Virus record (IMG/VR): IMGVR_UViG_3300023174_000100
Location: 34,623 to 98,622 of that record
Direction: 5' to 3' (one strand)
DNA: 64,000 bases
Source of the DNA: a virus
A program made the translations under genes and the position numbers. This document shows positions 9,866 through 64,000 of the stretch, one piece after another (position 1 is the first letter of the stretch; each line of letters begins with the position of its first letter). The notes beneath the pieces were generated by a model, which saw nothing but the letters and a program-made list of their open reading frames with translations, made no database searches and had not been told where the DNA came from.

Positions 9866-11362
9866 ATGAATTTTGAATTACCAAAACTAAAGAAAATAAC
9901 TAATCGTCCTAAAAAGAAAAAAATTCTACTCCTGTCGGATGATTTAAGATTAAACTCAGGTATTGGAGTAATGTCTAGGGAAATTGTAGTAGGTACAGCT
10001 AAATATTTTGATTGGGTTCAAATTGGAGCTGCTATAAAAAATCCTGATGCCGGTAAAATTATTGATGTTTCAGATGATGTTAACAAAGAAATAGGAATAG
10101 ATGACGCTAGCGTGCTTATATACCCTAATAATGGGTACGGAGATCCACACAAATTAAGAGAAATAATAACTAGAGAGTCGCCTGATGCGATTTTACATTT
10201 TACGGACCCGAGATTTTGGGAATGGCTATATGATATGGAGAGAGAAATTAGAACATCTATTCCTATTATGTATTATAATATATGGGACGATTTGCCATAT
10301 CCACATTGGAATTCTGAATTTTATGCTTCATGTGATTTCATATTTAATATATCAAAGCAAACTCATAATTTAGTTAATGTAGTATTAGAAGAAAATGAAT
10401 ATAAATATTATGATTTAGATTCTGGCGAACCAAAATCTTTTGATATAGATACAACTTACACTGCTTACATTCCTCATGGAATAAATAATAAACACATATA
10501 TAAGATTCTTCCAAGTAGCAAAGTATATGATGAATACAATGCTTATATATCTGATTTTAAAAGAGAAACGCCTACTGATTTTTTAATTTTTTGGAATAAT
10601 AGAAATATAAGAAGAAAACAACCGGGGGATGTTATTCTAGCTTTTACTAGGTTTTGCGAATATCTAAAAGATGATGATAAAGCTAGTAGATGTATTTTAG
10701 TCATGCATACAGACCCTATCGATGGAAATGGTACAGACTTAATTGCAACGGTAAAAGCTTTAAACCCAAAAGGAAAAGTCATTTTTTCTGATAAAAAAAT
10801 AGATACAAAGACACTAAATTTTTGGTATAATTTTGCGGATGTTGTTTTAAATATTGCATCTAATGAAGGATTCGGTCTTTCAGGAGCTGAAGCACTAATG
10901 GCCGGCACCCCTATTATAAATAATGTAACAGGAGGATTACAAGACCAGTGTGGTTTCATAGACAATAAAGGAAAGTACATAACATTTACAAAAGATTTCC
11001 CTACTAATCACGCAGGAACTTTTAGAAAGCATGGCGAATGGGCATTTCCAGTATTTCCTAACAATAGATCTCTACAAGGTTCACCGGCAACTCCCTATAT
11101 TTTTGATGACAGAGTATCCTTTGAGGAAGTGGCCGAGGCTATATTTTATTGGTACAAAATTCCTAGAGAAGAAAGAAAAGCATTAGGGAGCAAAGGAACG
11201 GCTTATGCTCTTGACCCGAAAGTAGGAATGTCAGCAGAGGAAATGTGTAATAGATTTATAAAAAATATCAATTTAGCTCTTGATAATTGGAAGCCGAGAT
11301 CTAGATATTCACTACATGAAATAAAACCAGAAAAAACTAATAAAGCAATAGGAATTCTATGA
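9866..11362 (+). CDS. GT-B fold glycosyltransferase (GT4-like)
   Basis: 498 residues, opening with a Rossmann start (KILLLSDDLRLNSGIGVMSREIV). The nucleotide-sugar binding signature is NEGFGLSGAEALMAGTPIIN near residues 332-351, with the E-x7-E pattern of GT4 enzymes. First gene of a run of transferases that continues to 25.1 kb. Its stop overlaps the next start by 4 bases (ATGA). Acceptor and sugar cannot be read from sequence. Confidence 0.85.
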   Translation: MNFELPKLKKITNRPKKKKILLLSDDLRLNSGIGVMSREIVVGTAKYFDWVQIGAAIKNPDAGKIIDVSDDVNKEIGIDDASVLIYPNNGYGDPHKLREIITRESPDAILHFTDPRFWEWLYDMEREIRTSIPIMYYNIWDDLPYPHWNSEFYASCDFIFNISKQTHNLVNVVLEENEYKYYDLDSGEPKSFDIDTTYTAYIPHGINNKHIYKILPSSKVYDEYNAYISDFKRETPTDFLIFWNNRNIRRKQPGDVILAFTRFCEYLKDDDKASRCILVMHTDPIDGNGTDLIATVKALNPKGKVIFSDKKIDTKTLNFWYNFADVVLNIASNEGFGLSGAEALMAGTPIINNVTGGLQDQCGFIDNKGKYITFTKDFPTNHAGTFRKHGEWAFPVFPNNRSLQGSPATPYIFDDRVSFEEVAEAIFYWYKIPREERKALGSKGTAYALDPKVGMSAEEMCNRFIKNINLALDNWKPRSRYSLHEIKPEKTNKAIGIL

Positions 11363-38734: not shown

Positions 38735-39395
38735 CGACACACACATACAATAGACAGGCATACAATAGATAGTGCATTAGAGAGACCATTAGACAGGCAT
38801 ACAATAGACAGGACAATATCGCGGGGCCCAATTACATCACACACACTACATACATCACACACATTAGATACATTAGATACACATGATACAATAGATGATA
38901 GATAGATGATAGATGAATAGGATATAATAAAACATATAATGAATTGCCTGATAAGATATGTACCATGTATATTAGATGTATATTAGATGTTATATAGATT
39001 AAATGATATACCTTATGTTGTATAGATGTTATATAGATTAAATGATGTTATATTAGATGATAGATAGATGTATATTAGATATTATATTTTTTATTTAATG
39101 TTATATAGATAGATATTAGGATATGTAATATAAATGTTGTATATTAGATGTATGTTAGATAGATGTATTATTAGATGTATATATAAGATAATGTATATAG
39201 AATGAATAATAAGAATGTATGATAGATGTTATATAAGATGATATAGTATAATGTAGTTTAGATGTTATGATAGATGTTATAGTAAGATGTAATTTAAATG
39301 ATGATTAGATGTGTATTGAGATAGATATGTTATGATAGATGATTAGTGTATGCTGGATGTTAGATATTAAAATGTATGTTAGATTATATGATAGT
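38735..39395. repeat. Low-complexity ATAGATGTTATATTAGAT array
   Basis: About 660 bases of degenerate repeats built from GATAGATG, TTAGATGT and TTATATAGAT words, with a short ACA-rich stretch at the left (38750-38880). No gene is visible. Possible origin, nucleoid or packaging-related DNA, or simply slippage-derived filler. Confidence 0.7.
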
Positions 39396-47073: not shown

Positions 47074-47793
47074 ATGAAAATTTTAGGTTTTAATTTTATT
47101 TTAGGTCAAACGGTACATTCTATAGACCTTAAATTATCCGCTACAAAAAAACTTGGTGGTCGTTTTGTTGTACAAACGTATCACTATGATTTGCAGCAAG
47201 TTATAAACAATGACTTTACTCAAGATAAAGAAAATTGTTTAGATTGTCCTTTTAGCTACAATAAAAATAACGGTAAAAGCGGGGGCTGTTATACGCATAA
47301 AGGTAATATGCTAAAAGGATTAAAATCTAAATTACGCTCTCTTAATAGAAAGTATAAATTAGGTTTATTAGCTACAGATTATAGCGACGTACTGCCTTTA
47401 TTAAACAAATATTTAGATAAATTGACTGCCAAAAATATAAATATTTCATTAGTACGGTTCGGTTCTTATGGTGAGGCGGTTACCCTGCCTTTAGACCTGT
47501 TAGACGGTTTATCTAAATTAGCAAAGCGTAAAACGGGTTATACGCACCAATGGAACAAACCGGAATTTAAGGAATACGCTAAATTATTAATGGCTTCGAC
47601 GCACAATATTTTTGAGGCAAAAATAGCCAATGATTTAGGTTTCAGGACATTCAATGTAGGTCTTTTAGAAAACAGTATTATGTGTCCGTCATCACCTACT
47701 ATAGAAAAGGATAAAAGGGTATCTTGCGCCAATTGTGGACTTTGTGCGGGAAATTCAATCAAAGCAAAGGATATTTATATTCCTAAACACTAA
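47074..47793 (+). CDS. DUF7227-like Cys-rich phage protein (paralogue A)
   Basis: 239 residues. Conserved features: QTYHYDLQQ, CLDCPFSYNKNNGKSGGCYTH, LVRFGSYGEAVTLP, TGYTHQWNKP, LMASTHNIFEA, and a C-terminal CPSSPT...CANCGLCAG. The cysteines could bind zinc or an iron-sulfur cluster. Such proteins occur widely in phages without a known function. A paralogue is at 51817. Confidence 0.8.
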   Translation: MKILGFNFILGQTVHSIDLKLSATKKLGGRFVVQTYHYDLQQVINNDFTQDKENCLDCPFSYNKNNGKSGGCYTHKGNMLKGLKSKLRSLNRKYKLGLLATDYSDVLPLLNKYLDKLTAKNINISLVRFGSYGEAVTLPLDLLDGLSKLAKRKTGYTHQWNKPEFKEYAKLLMASTHNIFEAKIANDLGFRTFNVGLLENSIMCPSSPTIEKDKRVSCANCGLCAGNSIKAKDIYIPKH

Positions 47794-51677: not shown

Positions 51678-51783
51678 TATCTTTGTGGTGTTGTTAAGAG
51701 AGAGAGTAATTAGAAAGGCAAAAAAATAATTTAAAAAAAGTTTGCCTTAAATTTGGAAAATAGAAAATTACTTTTTATTTTTG
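51678..51783 (+). promoter_or_regulatory. Tandem promoter with long nested inverted repeat, copy B
   Basis: TATCTTTG (51678-51685) and TATTTTTG (51776-51783) with the same AAGGCAAA/TTTGCCTT and AGTAATT/AATTACT pairs between as in copy A. Confidence 0.65.
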
Positions 51784-51816
51784 CATCAGATTATTAACCA
51801 CTTAAATACACAAGTT

Positions 51817-52524
51817 ATGCTTAAGCAAATTAATTTCAGATTAGGCGACGTTATCCACTGTATCGATATCAAGCCTAGTGCCACTCCGAAGCTCGCTAAA
51901 AAAGGCGAAATTATCTTACAAACTTATCATTTTTCTATTGACCAGATTAATGAAGGTAGCCTAAAAAATGACTCAAAGGTATGTTTTGATTGTAAGTTCT
52001 CTTATAATGCAAACGACGGAAAGTCAGGCGGTTGCTATACCCATGCGAACGGATCCCTAGCATGGGGATTGATTGCAAAATTAAAAGCCTTAAAAAAGCG
52101 TTTGGATAACGGATTAATTCCGGAAGGAGCTGAAGGCGTAATGGAACAAATTACGAGCGTTACAAAAAAGGTTAAAATATCCTTTGCTAGATTGGGAACG
52201 TATGGAGAGCCTACATTATTACCTTTTGAGTTGATAGAACAAATAAGGCCTTTGGTTGGTAAGGTTTCAGGCTATACTCACCAATGGCACAAACCAGAGA
52301 ATAAGCCTTATGCAAAATACTTAATGGCTAGTACGCATAATATCTTTGACGTAAAATTAGCCGAAGGCCTTGGATTCAGGTCTTACAATGCTAGTGAGGT
52401 TGAAGGTGCTATCCTTTGTCCATCAGCACCAACCATAGCAAAAGAAAAGCAAGTAAGCTGCGCTAAATGTGGATTGTGTGAAGGTGGAAAGAAAGCTAAG
52501 AATATTTACAATGTAATCCATTAA
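51817..52524 (+). CDS. DUF7227-like Cys-rich phage protein (paralogue B)
   Basis: 235 residues from ATG 51817. CFDCKFSYNANDGKSGGCYTH, FARLGTYGEPTLLP, SGYTHQWHKP, LMASTHNIFDV and CAKCGLCEGG mirror the protein at 47074, so the two are old paralogues with all Cys conserved. Unknown function, perhaps metal binding. Confidence 0.8.
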   Translation: MLKQINFRLGDVIHCIDIKPSATPKLAKKGEIILQTYHFSIDQINEGSLKNDSKVCFDCKFSYNANDGKSGGCYTHANGSLAWGLIAKLKALKKRLDNGLIPEGAEGVMEQITSVTKKVKISFARLGTYGEPTLLPFELIEQIRPLVGKVSGYTHQWHKPENKPYAKYLMASTHNIFDVKLAEGLGFRSYNASEVEGAILCPSAPTIAKEKQVSCAKCGLCEGGKKAKNIYNVIH

Positions 52525-57718: not shown

Positions 57719-58345
57719 ATGAACGTATTAGAATTATTCGCAGGCAGTAAGTCTATTGGCAAAGCTGCTGCTCAATTAGACATGAACGTATTCTCTGTTG
57801 ATTGGGAAAACTTTGATGGTATTGATTTGCAGATAGACATTTCAAAACTAAAGAAAGAAGATGTTCCGTTTGTTCCAGATATTATTTGGGCATCTCCAGA
57901 TTGTACAACATACACTATTGCTGCTATATCTACTCACAGAAATGGCGTAGAGCCGAAGAGCAAGTACGCTAGCGAGTGCGACATCACTAATCAACATTTC
58001 ATATCATTGATAAAGGAATGGTTAGAGATTAATCCTAACATGGTTTTCTTCATAGAGAATCCAAGAGGCATGTTAAGAAAGATGCCATGGATGCAAGAAT
58101 TTAAAAGACATACAGTATGGTATTGCCAGTACGGAGACGACAGAGCGAAGCCTACAGATATATGGACTAATTCAGAAGATTGGGTTCCTAGACCAATATG
58201 TAAAAATGGTAATAAGAAATGTCACCATACCCCTGCTCCTAGAGGTTCAAAGACAGGAACTCAAGGAAGGAAGGGTTCTTATGAAAGAAGCAGAATTCCA
58301 GAAGAGTTGTGTCATGAAATTCTAACTTCTTGTAAAAAATATTAA
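57719..58345 (+). CDS. C5 cytosine DNA methyltransferase-like protein
   Basis: 208 residues. Motif I is LELFAGSKSIG; the catalytic region is IIWASPDCTTYT with C62; motif VI is FFIENPRGMLRKM with E113. This is the short phage-type DNA methylase family; there is no clear large target-recognition domain. It may protect phage DNA from restriction. No partner restriction enzyme is nearby. Confidence 0.8.
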   Translation: MNVLELFAGSKSIGKAAAQLDMNVFSVDWENFDGIDLQIDISKLKKEDVPFVPDIIWASPDCTTYTIAAISTHRNGVEPKSKYASECDITNQHFISLIKEWLEINPNMVFFIENPRGMLRKMPWMQEFKRHTVWYCQYGDDRAKPTDIWTNSEDWVPRPICKNGNKKCHHTPAPRGSKTGTQGRKGSYERSRIPEELCHEILTSCKKY

Positions 58346-58373
58346 TTATTAGTCACCGCGAAAAACTTAAAAA

Positions 58374-58643
58374 ATGGCAATATTCAAGTATTTAGATGAT
58401 TTCTTACCAGGCAGAAATGTCAATGATTTTGTATTCACTATGTTAGACCCTATATCTAATGAAGAATTAACATGGTATATAGAAGATGTCTTAGATGAAA
58501 TAAATAGAGACAGGTCAGCTAAGTGGACTAACTACACAAAAGATGATTGGTACGATGGTTGGAATTCATGGTGTGAGGATGATGCTTATGTAATGCTCTC
58601 CATAGAAGACAAGGGAGACATAGTGCATAGACCGTTTTCTTAG
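58374..58643 (+). CDS. Small acidic protein, unknown
   Basis: 89 residues, acidic and Trp-rich (DDWYDGWNSWCEDDAY). Leader AGTCACCGCGAAAAACTTAAAAA. Followed immediately by a tRNA 3' half. Confidence 0.65.
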   Translation: MAIFKYLDDFLPGRNVNDFVFTMLDPISNEELTWYIEDVLDEINRDRSAKWTNYTKDDWYDGWNSWCEDDAYVMLSIEDKGDIVHRPFS

Positions 58644-58660
58644 TAAATAAAATGGTCGGG

Positions 58661-58688
58661 GCAGGTTCAAATCCTGTCCTGACTACCA
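58661..58688 (+). pseudogene. tRNA 3' half (T arm, acceptor, CCA)
   Basis: GCAGG-TTCAAAT-CCTGT T arm, CCTGACT acceptor strand, A and CCA. No matching 5' half lies upstream. Same acceptor as 54253. Confidence 0.6.
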
Positions 58689-58742
58689 ACAGCTTAAATG
58701 TTGTGCAAGAGTACCCGTTCTCTGAAGATAAACAAAGGGGTT

Positions 58743-58815
58743 AGTCAGGTGGTGAAATTGGTAACACCTCAGGGGTAATAGCTTGATAATATAGGTTCAA
58801 ATCCTATTCTGACCA
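58743..58815 (+). tRNA. tRNA-like sequence with 8-base anticodon loop
   Basis: AGTCAGG/TCTGACC acceptor (A-C mismatch and a G-T pair), D arm GTG...CAC with AAATTGGTAA, anticodon stem TCAGG/CTTGA around GGTAATAG, T arm ATAGG-TTCAAAT-CCTAT. The 8-base loop lacks the usual U33, so charging and decoding are doubtful. Confidence 0.5.
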
Positions 58816-58825
58816 CACGTTCTGG

Positions 58826-58985
58826 TTAATCACCAGATAGTATGCCTAATATGATGAAACAGAGTGATTACTGTATAGGTACGTACATTGACGTATAGGG
58901 AGAACGTCAGGGGGTGTCAACCCGACCTCGTTAGGACGAAATGACTATTCCTAACCCCTTGTCTAGGGGGACAGCCATAACATCT
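58826..58985 (+). ncRNA. Candidate structured RNA between tRNA-like sequences
   Basis: Several perfect stems in order: CTGGT/ACCAG, TGCCTA/TAGGTA enclosing ACAG/CTGT, TGACGT/ACGTCA, GTTAGGA/TCCTAAC and TGTC/GACA. The segment is richer in G+C than its surroundings and has no gene. It does not match a ribozyme or intron class I know. Confidence 0.45.
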
Positions 58986-59058
58986 GTAAGTTGGATAAAT
59001 TAGGGTGTTAGTTTTTTTGGATTTTTAGAAACATTTATATATTAAATTTTAAATAATT

Positions 59059-59102
59059 AAGAGGGCGTGTACTCTTACAGGTTAGAATCTGTCCTGACTA
59101 CA
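59059..59102 (+). pseudogene. 5'-truncated tRNA-like sequence
   Basis: AAGAG/CTCTT stem with 8-base loop GGCGTGTA, degenerate T arm ACAG/CTGT and acceptor strand CCTGACT, then ACA. No acceptor 5' strand or D arm found. Confidence 0.5.
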
Positions 59103-59116
59103 AAAAAATAACTAAA

Positions 59117-60112
59117 ATGAAAGTACTAATAACGGGCGTCGCAGGATTTATAGGCAGTCATCTAGCACACTCTATGTTAACCCAATGGCACAAAGTGATA
59201 GGTGTGGACTTCTTTGAGAGAAGCGATGCCCGGTTATTAAATAGAATGAGATTGGATAACCTGCATAAGACGAAGGGCATTGAGTATCACAACGTAGACA
59301 TAGCAGACAGGGATCAGGTAGAACCTATATTCTCTCTTCACAAGTTTGACATGGTTATAAATCTTGCGGGCCAGGCAGGAGTGAGATCTAGCATTAAAAA
59401 TCCGGATCTCTATGCCCGATCAAATGTCCAGGGATTTTTAACCATTATAGAAGCATGTAAGAAATATGATGTAAAGCATTTAGTGTATGCATCTAGTTCA
59501 AGTGTATATGGAATGAGAGATAACATGGATATGACATTTAGTACAGATGATAGAACGGATGGGCCAGTATCCTTTTATGCAGCGACTAAGAAGATGAATG
59601 AATTGACGGCACATGTATATAGTCATTTGTTCAACATGCGTACTACAGGTCTTAGATTCTTTACAGTGTATGGTCCATGGGGTAGACCAGATATGATGGT
59701 TTATAAATTTACATATAACATCTATAATAAGATTCCTATTGACATTTATAATCATGGAGAGATGTTTAGAGAATTTACTTACATTGATGATATTATTGAT
59801 GGGATTAATATTGTGATTAAAAATGAAACGGATGTCAAGTACATGTTATATAATATAGGTAGCAATGAGAGTATTAAGATATTAGATTTTATTGATGTCC
59901 TGGAGGAGGAGATTGGTATTGGGGCCCTGCGGAATTTTGAACGGATGCAAGACGGAGATGTTTTATTTACTGCATCTGATGTAGCCCCGCTGAAAAATCT
60001 AGGTTACGAACCAAAAGTAAAATATAGAGAAGGGATCAAACGGTTTTTAAAATGGTATGATTCGATAGACAATACAACACACCGGAAAATATTAGAACAG
60101 ACCGGTTTATAA
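59117..60112 (+). CDS. NAD-dependent sugar-nucleotide epimerase (UDP-glucuronate 4-epimerase-like)
   Basis: 331 residues of the extended SDR family. NAD-binding TGVAGFIGSH at residues 6-15, catalytic serines in YASSSSVYG (near 126) and Y154-x3-K158 (SFYAATK). QAGVRSSIKNP and FFTVYGPWGRPDM place it with UDP-glucuronate/galacturonate 4-epimerases (capI/wbpP type). It could supply an activated sugar to the transferases at 9.9-25 kb. Not in a module of the surrounding type; preceded by a tRNA remnant. Confidence 0.9.
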   Translation: MKVLITGVAGFIGSHLAHSMLTQWHKVIGVDFFERSDARLLNRMRLDNLHKTKGIEYHNVDIADRDQVEPIFSLHKFDMVINLAGQAGVRSSIKNPDLYARSNVQGFLTIIEACKKYDVKHLVYASSSSVYGMRDNMDMTFSTDDRTDGPVSFYAATKKMNELTAHVYSHLFNMRTTGLRFFTVYGPWGRPDMMVYKFTYNIYNKIPIDIYNHGEMFREFTYIDDIIDGINIVIKNETDVKYMLYNIGSNESIKILDFIDVLEEEIGIGALRNFERMQDGDVLFTASDVAPLKNLGYEPKVKYREGIKRFLKWYDSIDNTTHRKILEQTGL

Positions 60113-60120
60113 AGAGCAAA

Positions 60121-60174
60121 GTTTAAGTGGTGCATTTAGAAGACAGGCTCTAATCTCTCCGGTTATCCTGTCTT
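60121..60174 (+). ncRNA. Second anti-leader motif with hairpin
   Basis: GTTTAAGTGGT (60121-60131) complements the ACCACTTAAAC leader and is followed by an AAGACAGG/CCTGTCTT stem (60140-60147, 60167-60174) and CCTTTT. Could be the epimerase 3' UTR and terminator. Confidence 0.4.
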
Positions 60175-60201
60175 CCTTTTAAAAAACAAACAAAAAATTA
60201 T

Positions 60202-60555
60202 ATGAGAAAAATTAGTTTATGTGCTTTATTATTCGTATCTTTACTATCTTACGGCCAAACGGATAGTACAGATTGCCCGATTTATTCTATAGTCAATAAC
60301 ACGGTTTTCTTTGTGCCTGATCAAAACAAATTCGAATACGTAATTGTTAGCAGACATGATGATTTCGTAGAGACATTAAATCACATGCTAACCTTCATCA
60401 AACCGAAACAGGATAACCTTGTAGTAGCCTTTAACGGCCGGGAAGAGGAAGTGATTTACAACGACAGGAAAAAACGATACTACTTTGAAGGAGGCCACTA
60501 CAAGAATTTCGGGGACCTAATTTCGGCGGTGAAGTTCTTTTTACTAACAAATTAA
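60202..60555 (+). CDS. Small secreted protein, unknown
   Basis: 117 residues with a signal peptide (RKISLCALLFVSLLSYGQ) and polar mature part (DCPIYSIVNNTVFFVPDQN). The SLLSYGQ cleavage region is typical of Bacteroidota secreted proteins. Unknown function. Confidence 0.7.
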   Translation: MRKISLCALLFVSLLSYGQTDSTDCPIYSIVNNTVFFVPDQNKFEYVIVSRHDDFVETLNHMLTFIKPKQDNLVVAFNGREEEVIYNDRKKRYYFEGGHYKNFGDLISAVKFFLLTN

Positions 60556-60569
60556 AAACATCTCACAAC

Positions 60570-60980
60570 ATGTCTAAAAAATTAGAAACAAAGGATCTCA
60601 TATCATTAGATTCATTATCATTAGGAGAGTCCATAGATAATAAGATGTCTATATTCAATAACGTCATTACATCTATTAAAACATTCCCAGATTCAAATTA
60701 TTTATGTACGGCTTACCTGTTACTAGAAGATCCGGAAGATGTGACAAATGTATTCTTCTTTCCATTGTTTGAAGATGAAGAAAAGAACATGCAGGCATTC
60801 TTATTGAAAACGGAAGAAGATACAAAAGTGTTTTTAAATTACATGGAGAAAGTATCTGAAAATGTAAAAGTTCCAAAACTTACAGAATTCATAAATGAGA
60901 TAAATCATGAAATAGAAATAGATTCTGAAAAAGGAAAATATTATAAATCATGTAAAGGTATATTAACCCTACCGGCATAA
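60570..60980 (+). CDS. Unknown acidic protein
   Basis: 136 residues, helical, acidic (NMQAFLLKTEEDTKVFLNYMEKVSENVK). Unknown. Confidence 0.65.
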   Translation: MSKKLETKDLISLDSLSLGESIDNKMSIFNNVITSIKTFPDSNYLCTAYLLLEDPEDVTNVFFFPLFEDEEKNMQAFLLKTEEDTKVFLNYMEKVSENVKVPKLTEFINEINHEIEIDSEKGKYYKSCKGILTLPA

Positions 60981-60986
60981 ATTAAT

Positions 60987-61013
60987 CGCGGGGCTGAAAA
61001 AAATGGCCCCGCG
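60987..61013 (+). terminator. CGCGGGGC/GCCCCGCG hairpin
   Basis: Perfect 8-bp stem with an 11-base loop; followed by GAAAATTG, no T run. Confidence 0.65.
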
Positions 61014-61101
61014 GAAAATTGAAGAACGCATCCTGGATAGATGGGAAAAATTTATGCGAAAAAAACTTTGACCAGGTGTTGCATATATCAATAGAATGTT
61101 T

Positions 61102-61109
61102 TATCTTTG
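61102..61109 (+). promoter_or_regulatory. -7 box TATCTTTG
   Basis: With TTG at 61079-61081 as a possible -33 element; precedes the ATG at 61130. Confidence 0.65.
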
Positions 61110-61129
61110 CCAAATAAATAAATGAAATT

Positions 61130-61459
61130 ATGAAAAATGAAGTAACGGAATGGATAAACCAGGTTGGTAGCCTCATTAGACAACAAAAGATTCTCAAAGA
61201 AAAAGAAACGGATCTTAGGGAAAAAATATCGGAGGCGATAAGCGATATCGACTTATCATCCATATCAACAAAAGAAGTAACAATAACTAAGGTAACGAAA
61301 AAGAATTACACTTACTCTAAAAAAATACAGGAGAAAGAACGAGAACTAAAAGTAATGAAGCAACAGGAAGAAGAATACGGAGTAGCGACATACGTTTTAA
61401 AAAGTCACTACATGTATACCTTGAATAAAGACATTGAAAATAATTCTAACGACATCTAA
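61130..61459 (+). CDS. Coiled-coil protein, paralogue of 45053
   Basis: 109 residues; helical N-terminus (SLIRQQKILKEKETDLREKISEAI), NYTYSKKIQ and EYGVATYVLKSHYMYTL mirror 45053. Unknown function. Confidence 0.7.
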   Translation: MKNEVTEWINQVGSLIRQQKILKEKETDLREKISEAISDIDLSSISTKEVTITKVTKKNYTYSKKIQEKERELKVMKQQEEEYGVATYVLKSHYMYTLNKDIENNSNDI

Positions 61460-61460
61460 T

Positions 61461-61766
61461 ATGAATAACAATAGTAATATACCGGCTAACATATTAGAAA
61501 GATGTTACGATGAAATGTCTATCATTGCGAACGGTGTTAGATACTGCGGTAAACGACTTCAAACAGACGGAATAGAATTGTATGTTATAACCGGTGATTA
61601 TGAACCGGCAGTCAAAACACACATGACATACATTGCAGCCATTCATAGACCATCAAAAAAGATTGAATGGTTCGACATGTTAGAGAACGGTAAGCTTTTC
61701 CCGTGGATCACAAAAAAGGTTGCTAAGGGCATAGAAGAGTTTAAATTATCAATAAAAAAAGGTTAA
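61461..61766 (+). CDS. Small protein, unknown
   Basis: 101 residues from ATG 61461 (NNNSNIPANILERCYDEMSIIANGVRYCGKRL). Follows the previous gene by one base. Confidence 0.65.
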   Translation: MNNNSNIPANILERCYDEMSIIANGVRYCGKRLQTDGIELYVITGDYEPAVKTHMTYIAAIHRPSKKIEWFDMLENGKLFPWITKKVAKGIEEFKLSIKKG

Positions 61767-61782
61767 CCCCCCAAAAATTATC

Positions 61783-62175
61783 ATGGAAGCTAAAAAGAAA
61801 AAGTTTGTAGGAAACGGCAGGTTGATAAACACAAAAGATTCGACCGGCTTTGGAATGAACCTCTGCATCACCGACCTGTTCGAAATGTGCATGAAGGATC
61901 CGGAAGTTATGGAGTTTGTATATGAGTCGGAAAAGACCGGAAAGAAATACATACCCCTCATCGCATGGCCCCTAAAAGATATTAAAGAAGGAGAAAAGCT
62001 AAGAACGCACGCAATAAGCATCGACACATATAAGAAAGACGATGCCACAAGCAAACAAGCGTACAAAGCTCCGGAAAAGAAAGCTAAAGAAAATGTATTC
62101 GATGATTCATTTGAGGTAGCCAGCTTGTCCAATACATCCGATTCTCTACTATCCGATGATGACTTACCGTTCTAA
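61783..62175 (+). CDS. SSB-like protein with DDDLPF tail
   Basis: 130 residues. Residues 1-70 look beta-rich (FVGNGRLINT, GFGMNLCITDLF); residues 85-125 are a disordered Lys/Ser linker; the end is LLSDDDLPF, matching the acidic tip of single-strand DNA-binding proteins that recruits repair and replication partners. The N-terminal domain is not a recognisable bacterial OB fold. Candidate phage SSB. Confidence 0.6.
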   Translation: MEAKKKKFVGNGRLINTKDSTGFGMNLCITDLFEMCMKDPEVMEFVYESEKTGKKYIPLIAWPLKDIKEGEKLRTHAISIDTYKKDDATSKQAYKAPEKKAKENVFDDSFEVASLSNTSDSLLSDDDLPF

Positions 62176-62240
62176 ACCAACTCCGGTAGTAAAACGTAGC
62201 CAAAATCAGTATTTATTCTCAATCAATAAATGTTTTAATC

Positions 62241-62429
62241 ATGTTATCAACTAGTGTTTTTGTTTTATTATCAGTTATTGCACTTATTTTTGGAATCATG
62301 GGAGTTGTAATCTTAGCATCAAAAGAACCATCCGGATCAGTATCATCAGCATGGGAAAAGAATGTACCAGGATGGCTCCTAATTGTATCTAGCTTGTCCC
62401 TAATTGCAAGTGTACTAATTTTAATCTAA
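62241..62429 (+). CDS. Small two-helix membrane protein
   Basis: 62 residues: STSVFVLLSVIALIFGIMGVVIL and GWLLIVSSLSLIASVLIL joined by a Ser-rich turn. Unknown; typical small phage membrane protein. Confidence 0.65.
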   Translation: MLSTSVFVLLSVIALIFGIMGVVILASKEPSGSVSSAWEKNVPGWLLIVSSLSLIASVLILI

Positions 62430-62434
62430 CGGAA

Positions 62435-62468
62435 AAGGGCCGGCCAAGTTATAATCCGGCCCTTTTTT
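62435..62468 (+). terminator. Strong Rho-independent terminator
   Basis: AAGGGCCGG (62435-62443) and CCGGCCCTT (62456-62464) then T run. Confidence 0.93.
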
Positions 62469-62720
62469 CTTTTTTCTATCTCCCTATGTTGAAAAAAATA
62501 TAAAAAAAATGTAAAATGTTGATTGTCAATGATATAATATTTTCAAACATGCTTTTTAGATGGAATTAATGCATTTTTTTCTATCTCCCTATGTTGAAAA
62601 AAATATAAAAAATCATAAAACGTTGACAATCAATGCTATTTTTTATCGATAATCCTTAAAAATGCACAACAAAATGTCTAAAAAATGCACAAAATGTCTA
62701 AAAAATGCACAAAATGATGA
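62467..62720. repeat. AT-rich repeat region, possible origin
   Basis: TTTCTATCTCCCTATGTTG followed by AAAAAAATATAAAAA occurs twice (about 62472 and 62579). TTGATTGTCAA (62519) and TTGACAATCAA (62624) are inverted copies. AAAATGCACAAAATGTCTAA-type units repeat in tandem at 62658-62720. No gene is visible from 62469 to 63517. Confidence 0.6.
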
Positions 62721-62779
62721 AAAAATCCATCATTATGCATGTTTTTTTAATATTAAATATGTGTTTAAAATGAATTTCC

Positions 62780-62940
62780 CATAGACATCATAGAATCAAT
62801 TTTAAGGCATGTAGCGTTCATTCTGCTGCATCTTCTCATGGTGGGTGGAACTAGACGAAGGGTTGCACCTAGAGTCTTTTAGACGGCCTCTGTGTGCGAA
62901 ATAAAGGCATTCGGTGTGAAAACGGGGCTCACAAACAACC
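62780..62940. other. Local higher-GC segment in non-coding region
   Basis: Between AT-rich flanks lies text such as GGTGGGTGGAACTAGACG and GACGGCCTCTGTGTGCG with clearly higher G+C and no good ORF. Possibly an RNA gene or a remnant; not recognised. Confidence 0.35.
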
Positions 62941-62999
62941 AATTACCTCATCAATTACTAGGAATGCACTTCAAGTTTACATACATTATAGAGCGTATT

Positions 63000-63405
63000 T
63001 TCTGCTGCACATTTTACGATAAATTAACATCATTTCCAACATGGCTTTTACATGGGATAGACATTATTTGTATTATTTTTTTATTTCATGTTATATTACT
63101 CATTGAATATCATGTTACTATGATTTTTTTGAAGATTGTCATGATGGTATTTTATTTTAGGGGAATGGTAAAATAAATGATATATTATTTTATCATGTTT
63201 TTTATTTAATTTTTTATTTATTGCATTATATGTTACTATCATGTTGATTATGATTTTATTTTTATTGTTATTGATGTCTTTATTACATGTTATATTGGAT
63301 GATGTATGGAGGACATGATAGTATACATGATAGTATAAATGTATTAATGTTATGTTGGATGTTTTTATTTTTTATTGTTATTAATGTTTGGATATGTTAT
63401 TTTAA
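63000..63405. repeat. Low-complexity TTATATTGGATGATG-like array
   Basis: T/A-rich text with repeated ATGTTATAT, CATGATAG and TTATTTTT words, similar in style to 36870-37155 and 38735-39395. Hydrophobic frames here overlap the promoter at 63411 and are not considered genes. Confidence 0.5.
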
Positions 63406-63410
63406 TGTTG

Positions 63411-63418
63411 TATCTTTG
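63411..63418 (+). promoter_or_regulatory. -7 box TATCTTTG
   Basis: TATCTTTG 100 bases upstream of the first xxQV repeat gene. Confidence 0.55.
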
Positions 63419-63517
63419 TCATGTTTATTATTATTATTATATGTTATGCTGGGATTATGTATTATGTGGTGTCCCCGCGAAATATTTAGAAAACCAGGTA
63501 AAACAAAATGTAAAGTT

Positions 63518-63730
63518 ATGAAGAATATAAAAGGACAAGTAAGGAATCAAGTATGGGGTCAAGTATGGGAGCAAGTAAGTGATCGAGTATATAATCAAGT
63601 AGATAATAAAGTATGTTATCAAGTAAGGAATCAAGTATGGAGTCAAGTATGGGAGCAAGTAAGTATTCGAGTAAGGAATCAAGTAAGTAGTCAAGTGAGG
63701 AATCAAGTAAAACAAAATGTAAAGTTATGA
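63518..63730 (+). CDS. xxQV tetrad-repeat protein 1
   Basis: 70 residues from ATG 63518, made almost entirely of four-residue units ending in QV or RV (GQVR NQVW GQVW EQVS...), closing with QNVKL. The longer frame to 63287 runs through the promoter and is rejected. Its TGA overlaps the next ATG (ATGA). Confidence 0.7.
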   Translation: MKNIKGQVRNQVWGQVWEQVSDRVYNQVDNKVCYQVRNQVWSQVWEQVSIRVRNQVSSQVRNQVKQNVKL

Positions 63731-63951
63731 AGAATGTAAATAATCAAGCAGGTAGTCAAGTAGAGTATCAACTAAGGAATCAAGTAAGTAGTCAAGTATG
63801 GGAGCAAGTAAGTATTCAAGTGAGGAATCAAGTATGGGAGCAATTAAGTAGTCAAGTAGAGTATCAAGTAGGGGAGCAAGTAGGGGATCGAGTGAGTCAT
63901 AAAGTATGGAATCAAGTGAGAAGTCAAGTAACAGAAAATACGAAGTTATGA
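63727..63951 (+). CDS. xxQV tetrad-repeat protein 2
   Basis: 74 residues, MKNVNNQAGSQVEYQLRNQV and further NQVS/SQVW/EQVS units, closing with ENTKL. Overlaps both neighbours by ATGA. DNA unit is 12 bases (xxx CAA GTA xxx). Confidence 0.7.
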   Translation: MKNVNNQAGSQVEYQLRNQVSSQVWEQVSIQVRNQVWEQLSSQVEYQVGEQVGDRVSHKVWNQVRSQVTENTKL

Positions 63952-64000
63952 AGAATGTAAATAATCAAGCAGGTAGTCAAGTAGAGTATCAACTAAGGAA
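63948..64000 (+). CDS. xxQV tetrad-repeat protein 3 (partial)
   Basis: Starts MKNVNNQAGSQVEYQLR, identical to protein 2 as far as the window reaches; runs off the right edge. Confidence 0.65.
   Translation, partial: MKNVNNQAGSQVEYQLR

Follow-up and report, generated by a model that had tools for sequence, protein, structure and literature searches.

The window, that is, the whole 64,000-base stretch analysed here, covers positions 34623-98622 of a 98622-base virus record and ends in a row of small genes made of four-residue xxQV repeats, in which the two residues x1 and x2 vary. The features of the locus are:

62670..63488, no strand: AT-rich leader, lying after the last ordinary gene (62241-62429) and before the array (ORF list)
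63489..63521, + strand: end of a truncated upstream xxQV frame, ENQVKQNVKL and stop, where ORF 63375-63521 terminates
63518..63730, + strand: xxQV gene 1, 70 aa, complete (sequence, ORF list)
63536..63931, + strand: 12-base tandem repeat, 33.6 copies, unit CAA GTA x1 x2 (unit statistics)
63727..63951, + strand: xxQV gene 2, 74 aa, complete, ATGA overlap with gene 1 (sequence; AlphaFold2 helix)
63948..64000, + strand: xxQV gene 3, start only, 17 codons and then the window end (sequence; record end)

The array found by Tandem Repeats Finder (score 197, consensus CAAGTAAGGAAT) and the translated genes bear out the earlier note, which had described period-4 xxQV proteins encoded by 12-base units in tandem ATGA-overlapping small genes at 63518-64000. 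Two of the genes are complete and one is cut off. The genes are coupled start to stop, each start overlapping the preceding stop as ATGA; the ATG of gene 1 (63518) overlaps the TGA of the truncated upstream frame, which has the same C-terminus as gene 1. The proteins consist of xxQV units from codon 1, MKNV being a degenerate unit, and finish with a short tail (KQNVKL or TENTKL). The antisense frame is likewise open over 86 aa, as expected from a 12-base repeat. The array runs off the window, as had also been claimed, with the third gene cut by the end of the contig; as the window end is the record end, there is no sequence rightward to read. Gene 3, as far as it is visible (53 bases), does not differ from the beginning of gene 2, so that the extreme end could be an assembler loop and the reality of gene 3 depends on the assembly. 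A second contig (L002/L179), 100% identical over 7.9 kb, terminates within gene 2.

Part of the leader is conserved in a relative of the window (L005), and window 62468-62640, in the AT-rich leader region upstream of the array, contains two direct copies of a sequence of some 38 bases (ttttttctatctccctatgttgaaaaaaatataaaaaa). An Rfam search of 58000-64000 returned one tRNA only and placed the leader in no family; the tRNA-like gene at window 58743-58816, whose anticodon is unreadable in ARAGORN, is also scored as tRNA by Rfam. Farther upstream, window 38968-39312 holds strongly AT-rich degenerate short tandem repeats, with no ORF of at least 180 aa listed there. Two clearly similar ORFs at window 47074-47793 and 51781-52524 represent a duplicated gene of unknown function and share the cysteine motifs FSYN..GKSGGCYTH and C..CGLC.

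Gene 1 matched no Pfam family above its cut-off, and a close-relative search with gene 2 found relatives on other phage contigs (9 loci). A four-unit pattern starting with ATG AAR found 65 viral stretches, and a looser five-unit pattern at least 120 matches, mixing arrays with simple repeats and with larger proteins that carry the repeat internally (cis proteins, below). With our own detector, at least two small xxQV genes were located on 56 IMG/VR contigs besides that of the window, 12 of them of at least 60 kb (the largest 369 kb), with 2-25 distinct genes per contig. The ATG AAR pattern gave nine stretches in 84,980 cellular genomes; two contained a detector-positive ORF and none held two small xxQV genes. 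The arrays are thus almost confined to viruses. A tblastn search with two array proteins against 50,697 phage records yielded a Mycobacterium prophage as the sole match, which was rejected as an array carrier, the match falling inside a protein with QL repeats of the DUF6745 type (a Pfam family, PF20530, considered below). Eight plasmid records matched and four were examined: a Vibrio plasmid with a simple CSQV repeat antisense to an annotated CDS, a Blattabacterium plasmid with an RTQV/RAQV repeat and a Nocardia plasmid with a cis DUF6745-type protein were discarded, and the scan of an Enterococcus plasmid showed nothing. The Blattabacterium repeat (L133) is an unannotated frame of about 25-30 RTQV/RAQV units on a tiny endosymbiont plasmid of 3088 bases. 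At L096 1188-2387 (- strand), xxQV repeats lie within another protein, whose start has a putative macro-domain-like motif, so the repeat can enter proteins besides DUF6745.

The array proteins (a set of 190, median length 64 aa) are highly regular. Among 186 distinct members the dominant phase contains on average 95% of the Q-V type pairs, and 91 are strict. Over 3673 units the Q position is Q in 91% and the V position is V in 88%, both upper bounds since the detector requires QV-like pairs. Position x1 is W in 24%, R in 22%, S in 9%, E in 7% and Y in 7% of the units, and x2 is D in 31%, N in 20% and S in 10%. Among 190 distinct adjacent gene pairs, 96 overlap by exactly 4 bases (ATGA), 26 by 14, 17 by 17 and 12 by 8 (an earlier count of 128/222 included duplicates and a start choice biased to overlap).

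The codons of the constant positions differ between phages. Valine is encoded by GTA in the window, GTG in L003, GTC in L004, L007, L116 and L148, and GTT in L172; glutamine is CAA, or CAG in L137, L143 and L192. Within one phage the QV codons are nearly fixed and ignore that phage's codon usage: in L148, GTC makes up 198 of 200 valine codons in the units and 9% elsewhere. The same QV reached through differing synonymous codons indicates that the protein is what is conserved between phages, while the array DNA is homogenised within each. Nearly all units of L004, L007, L116, L148 and L142 use GTC, a codon seldom found in most other genes of these phages, which gives the impression that array DNA has passed from phage to phage.

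For orthologous array genes in the relatives of the window, pN/pS was 0.64, 0.69 and 0.51 (13, 13 and 18 genes); the frames entered this calculation from stop to stop, so out-of-frame overlap probably raises the values. The units from 27 loci were joined in minimum spanning networks, which are not trees, and units recombine; one-base steps at x1/x2 were 53 synonymous to 533 not, against 87 to 312 expected. This excess of amino-acid changes looks like diversification, but the orthologue pN/pS points the opposite way and the signal is suggestive only; with pN/pS below 1, diversifying selection is unproven. Taken together, the array frames are almost certainly genuine genes. A selfish or neutral tandem expansion, in which a stop-free unit multiplies by slippage and recombination and the proteins idle, would account for the homogenised synonymous positions within a phage, for length changes in 12-base steps, for the open antisense frame and for simple repeats such as CSQV elsewhere, but it is quite unlikely given that starts, stops and exact overlaps recur across the 190 pairs, that QV is kept with differing codons between phages, that pN/pS is below 1, that arrays are almost confined to viruses and that they show a tight same-strand link to DUF6745, found with a repeat-free query as described below.

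The arrays change quickly. The earlier note had proposed that the 12-base repeats offer a route for length variation and that repeat number be compared between isolates; near-identical phage contigs do differ in 12-base steps, the array gaps being 12k bases, or 12k+2 where a gene boundary is included. Thus L113 and L123 have 0 mismatches over 9593 aligned bases and one 12-base gap; L148 and L153 differ by 5 mismatches over 9566 bases, by gaps of 12 and 194 inside the array and by one 1-base gap in the flank; L116 and L139 have 0 mismatches in 2800 and gaps of 182 and 146; and L139 and L151 have 0 mismatches in 12,386 and a gap of 146. The 182-base gap is one entire gene, ATGA to ATGA, and L186 contains a fusion of two L116 genes. 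Some pairs need gaps to be grouped (35 and 37, summing to 72; 256, with two boundaries), and L116/L186 and L167/L186 show an additional 2-base array gap. Three pairs (L009/L010, L142/L165 and L169/L175) had no array difference, and L159/L173 were too diverged to be read for array gaps. As these are metagenome contigs, the array differences could partly reflect misassembly at repeats. A diversity-generating retroelement was considered as a source of the variation, which avoids third codon positions, but gained no support: the A bases of QV are retained, and the 98.6-kb record, which may be incomplete, yielded no reverse transcriptase (RVT_1).

One protein family recurs beside the arrays. Among 55 array loci (one per near-identical set, chosen by judgement; L116 and L167 were both kept, and some loci share one contig), 29 carry the most frequent flanking family, which is on the same strand as the array in all 29. 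All six members tested in Pfam (L005, L116, L003, L148, L074 and L174) belong to DUF6745, with scores that are, in descending order, 126, 108, 103, 92, 39 and 27.5 bits against a threshold of 27; L005, the nearest to the window, only just passes. The DUF6745 profile matched 3 of 74 loci with neither an array nor a long repeat protein (L032, L053 and L080, the first two of which look like truncated cis types), and 29/55 versus 3/74 gives a Fisher p of 1e-10. The other 26 array loci had no DUF6745 in the DNA covered; three of them (L033, L013 and L172) are on long contigs that were partly covered.

As both groups of loci came from repeat searches, the link was retested from the DUF6745 side, with an alignment of 13 array-linked, repeat-free DUF6745 proteins as the query. 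Of 217 confirmed loci the best 80 were kept, already known contigs included: 54 had stand-alone xxQV genes within 4 kb, 2 were cis and 24 had none, and since these 80 are the nearest to the array-linked type, the 54/80 share should not be extended to DUF6745 as a whole. The nearby xxQV genes lie on the same strand as DUF6745 in 257 cases versus 5 on the opposite one; in 31 of the 54 loci such a gene is no more than 50 bases from DUF6745, and 29 of the 54 contigs were absent from every earlier QV search. One locus scored as having none (L287) carries three cis units, and a period-4 search of 30 DUF6745 loci that were arrayless by the earlier scans revealed QV-like repeats only, in L211, L214, L216 and L287. 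The 24 loci without a nearby xxQV gene, like gp174 of phage Ma-LMM01, indicate that DUF6745 can do without one. The array is nevertheless probably tied to DUF6745 functionally.

Relatives of the window show the same arrangement. L005, which is on the same contig as L208, is colinear with the window upstream of the array (76% DNA identity over 3.7 kb), and its DUF6745 frame starts about 100 bases beyond the last array gene found. A search with the L005 DUF6745 protein gave nine loci: three of them (L208, L209 and L210) match the window upstream, and in these DUF6745 is preceded by 19, 17 and 18 array frames, showing that long arrays exist in this group; in L211, L214 and L216 array-like genes lie 5-8 kb past DUF6745; and L212, L213 and L215 showed none. 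DUF6745 was not found in the window's own 98.6-kb record, in one of the searches run without a positive control, and from its relatives we predict that in this phage it would lie beyond the contig end.

A second flanking family, F2, of about 115 aa, is present in 25 of the 55 array loci by BLAST and in 28 by profile, as well as in 14 of the 25 loci whose long ORFs carry repeats and are mostly cis DUF6745; in L005, the frame at 10396-10830 is F2-like by eye, and the F2 profile gave no match to it. PHROGs places both DUF6745 (phrog_31813) and F2 in families of unknown function. In Ma-LMM01, DUF6745 is gp174, which has no repeats, and the adjoining gp175 is judged from its sequence to be a probable F2; in the passages searched, the main text of the Ma-LMM01 transcriptome paper mentions neither. 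The company that F2 keeps with both arrays and long repeat ORFs would also fit a looser arrangement, with a small but real chance of being correct, in which array, DUF6745 and F2 travel together as an anti-host or superinfection cassette without binding one another. Against this stands the structure of DUF6745 proteins in other phages, where the repeat sits inside the protein at a fixed place, which argues that array and DUF6745 work together.

Many DUF6745 proteins carry four-residue repeats of the xxQV, xxQL or SSLx type in cis, all at one site, unlike the window genes, which are repeats alone, encoded as separate tandem genes. The xxQV repeats are inserted after an SP motif and before a WLAFYDFF-like (W..FYDFF) region, with 6-33 units in the QV examples and up to about 60 in L065. 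The array-linked (trans) DUF6745 proteins align across the insertion point and have a short linker instead (seven aligned, none with a repeat). In MW202476, a circular phage genome from a spring, a DUF6745-type protein (L206 4640-5914) has SSL[RGEW] repeats at the cis site, and an unannotated F2 is found just downstream. The array proteins tested had no Pfam match to DUF6745 (threshold 27 bits) and resemble its inserted repeat only. These alignments suggest that repeat and DUF6745 core belong together, as one chain or as two, and the array is best read as a putative DUF6745 repeat module supplied in trans. The cis form might instead represent the acceptor site of a silent-cassette system, the array storing sequence donated by recombination into one expressed gene; blocks are indeed reused mosaically and fused between array genes. 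This is very unlikely, as array genes possess their own starts and stops and no acceptor copy was seen, although the flanking DUF6745 set had been chosen as poor in Q-V/I/L pairs (the seven aligned were repeat-free).

As to the fold, the earlier note had suggested a solenoid or a fibrous assembly. AlphaFold2 (70 rows) did not return a solenoid for gene 2, such as the right-handed strand coils of beta-solenoid or pentapeptide-like repeats, but a single 72-residue helix (residues 2-73; pLDDT 90, pTM 0.44), which a strict 4.0 period fits poorly: by our own reasoning, each unit of such a period would shift the QV stripe some 40 degrees round an ideal helix, so that partners would wind round it, or the fold would be another. 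In the cis protein of L022 (14 rows), the core is well predicted and the repeat is modelled as helices with a pLDDT of about 37-51. Gene 2 matched no solved structure by sequence, Foldseek found nothing below E 0.3 in the PDB for the cis DUF6745 model, and the best VIA-align hit to that model (Z 4.5) covered the repeat helix only; in BFVD the model matches Ma-LMM01 gp174 (E 2.6e-16), which speaks for homology only. The long unbroken periodic helix and the strict period of 4 would suit helical rods or filaments that self-assemble in the virion or the infected cell, with DUF6745 as only a neighbour or a cap. Such a fibre or scaffold is nonetheless improbable: the ten window proteins tested, nine of which are encoded directly upstream of the array, included no structural one, sequence searching gave no solved relative, and gene number and length differ between near-identical contigs, which would be unusual for a structural part.

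Other family searches gave little beyond the repeat itself. All PADLOC matches were weak and driven by the repeat (best E 3e-6, in the repeat of L022), and array-linked DUF6745 and F2 had none. DUF4816 (PF16086) matched the repeats of six of seven array proteins weakly (window genes 1 and 2, L008, L003, L007 and L113, not L005; E 7.5e-5 to 0.5), always under the family cut-off of 29.4 bits, which looks like repeat similarity only. A literature search, with subscription papers mostly outside it, found nothing on DUF4816, DUF6745 or six repeat strings, and a broader one had no relevant title among the matches listed. We know of no described system in which the internal repeat of a protein is delivered as a row of separate genes, and the literature search turned up none either.

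The closest functional parallel is gp54 of mycobacteriophage Tweety. According to the published accounts, this protein has four-residue repeats encoded by 12-base units, their number varies, and that number tunes escape from a prophage-encoded defence (PMC2884959, PMC9262239, PMC8549241). As in the array, the units are 12 bases long and, by the same accounts, vary at codon positions 1 and 2. Tweety gp54 differs in being one protein with its own ends, with the unit AA[GWQ][SY] and no array; it has no DUF6745 match and falls in phrog_3416, which window genes 1 and 2 do not match. Being neither DUF6745 nor in the same PHROG, it is like the array by analogy.

The explanation that we favour, with a probability somewhat short of even, is that the array proteins would be the DUF6745 repeat module acting in trans, with a role in conflict. 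Each genome would supply a number of distinct repeat rods to one and the same DUF6745 core, with F2 as a partner, and the choice of rod bound would set the length and surface of the core. New rods would arise quickly by unequal recombination, both among 12-base units and among entire genes, with frame, start and stop kept. In the most speculative step, the complex would act in conflict between phage and host or between phages, a setting that rewards rapid change in length and surface. On balance, judging from the cis proteins, the array proteins would physically bind DUF6745 in trans; the role in conflict, drawn from the Tweety analogy, is possible but rather doubtful. Our best guess, inferred from that likeness, is a tunable phage-host-conflict protein that would work like Tweety gp54 without being its relative. 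A more elaborate version, in which DUF6745 and F2 form a constant core with a genomic library of interchangeable rods, one per gene and constantly renewed by recombination between units, x1x2 being the recognition letter of evolvable binders against changing host or rival-phage proteins, is unlikely as it stands.

If the system is mechanistically related to Tweety-like counter-defence, it would be a variant of that kind. The finding turns an uncharacterised DUF6745 and a repeat that resembles low-complexity filler into one testable two-part viral protein system, of a sort that low-complexity masking and the length limits of gene callers would tend to miss. It would be an unusual cis/trans switch for some phages to build a module into a protein and for others to carry it as up to 25 separate genes in a row; that the module turns over rapidly and in frame, around two variable residues, suggests an arms race.
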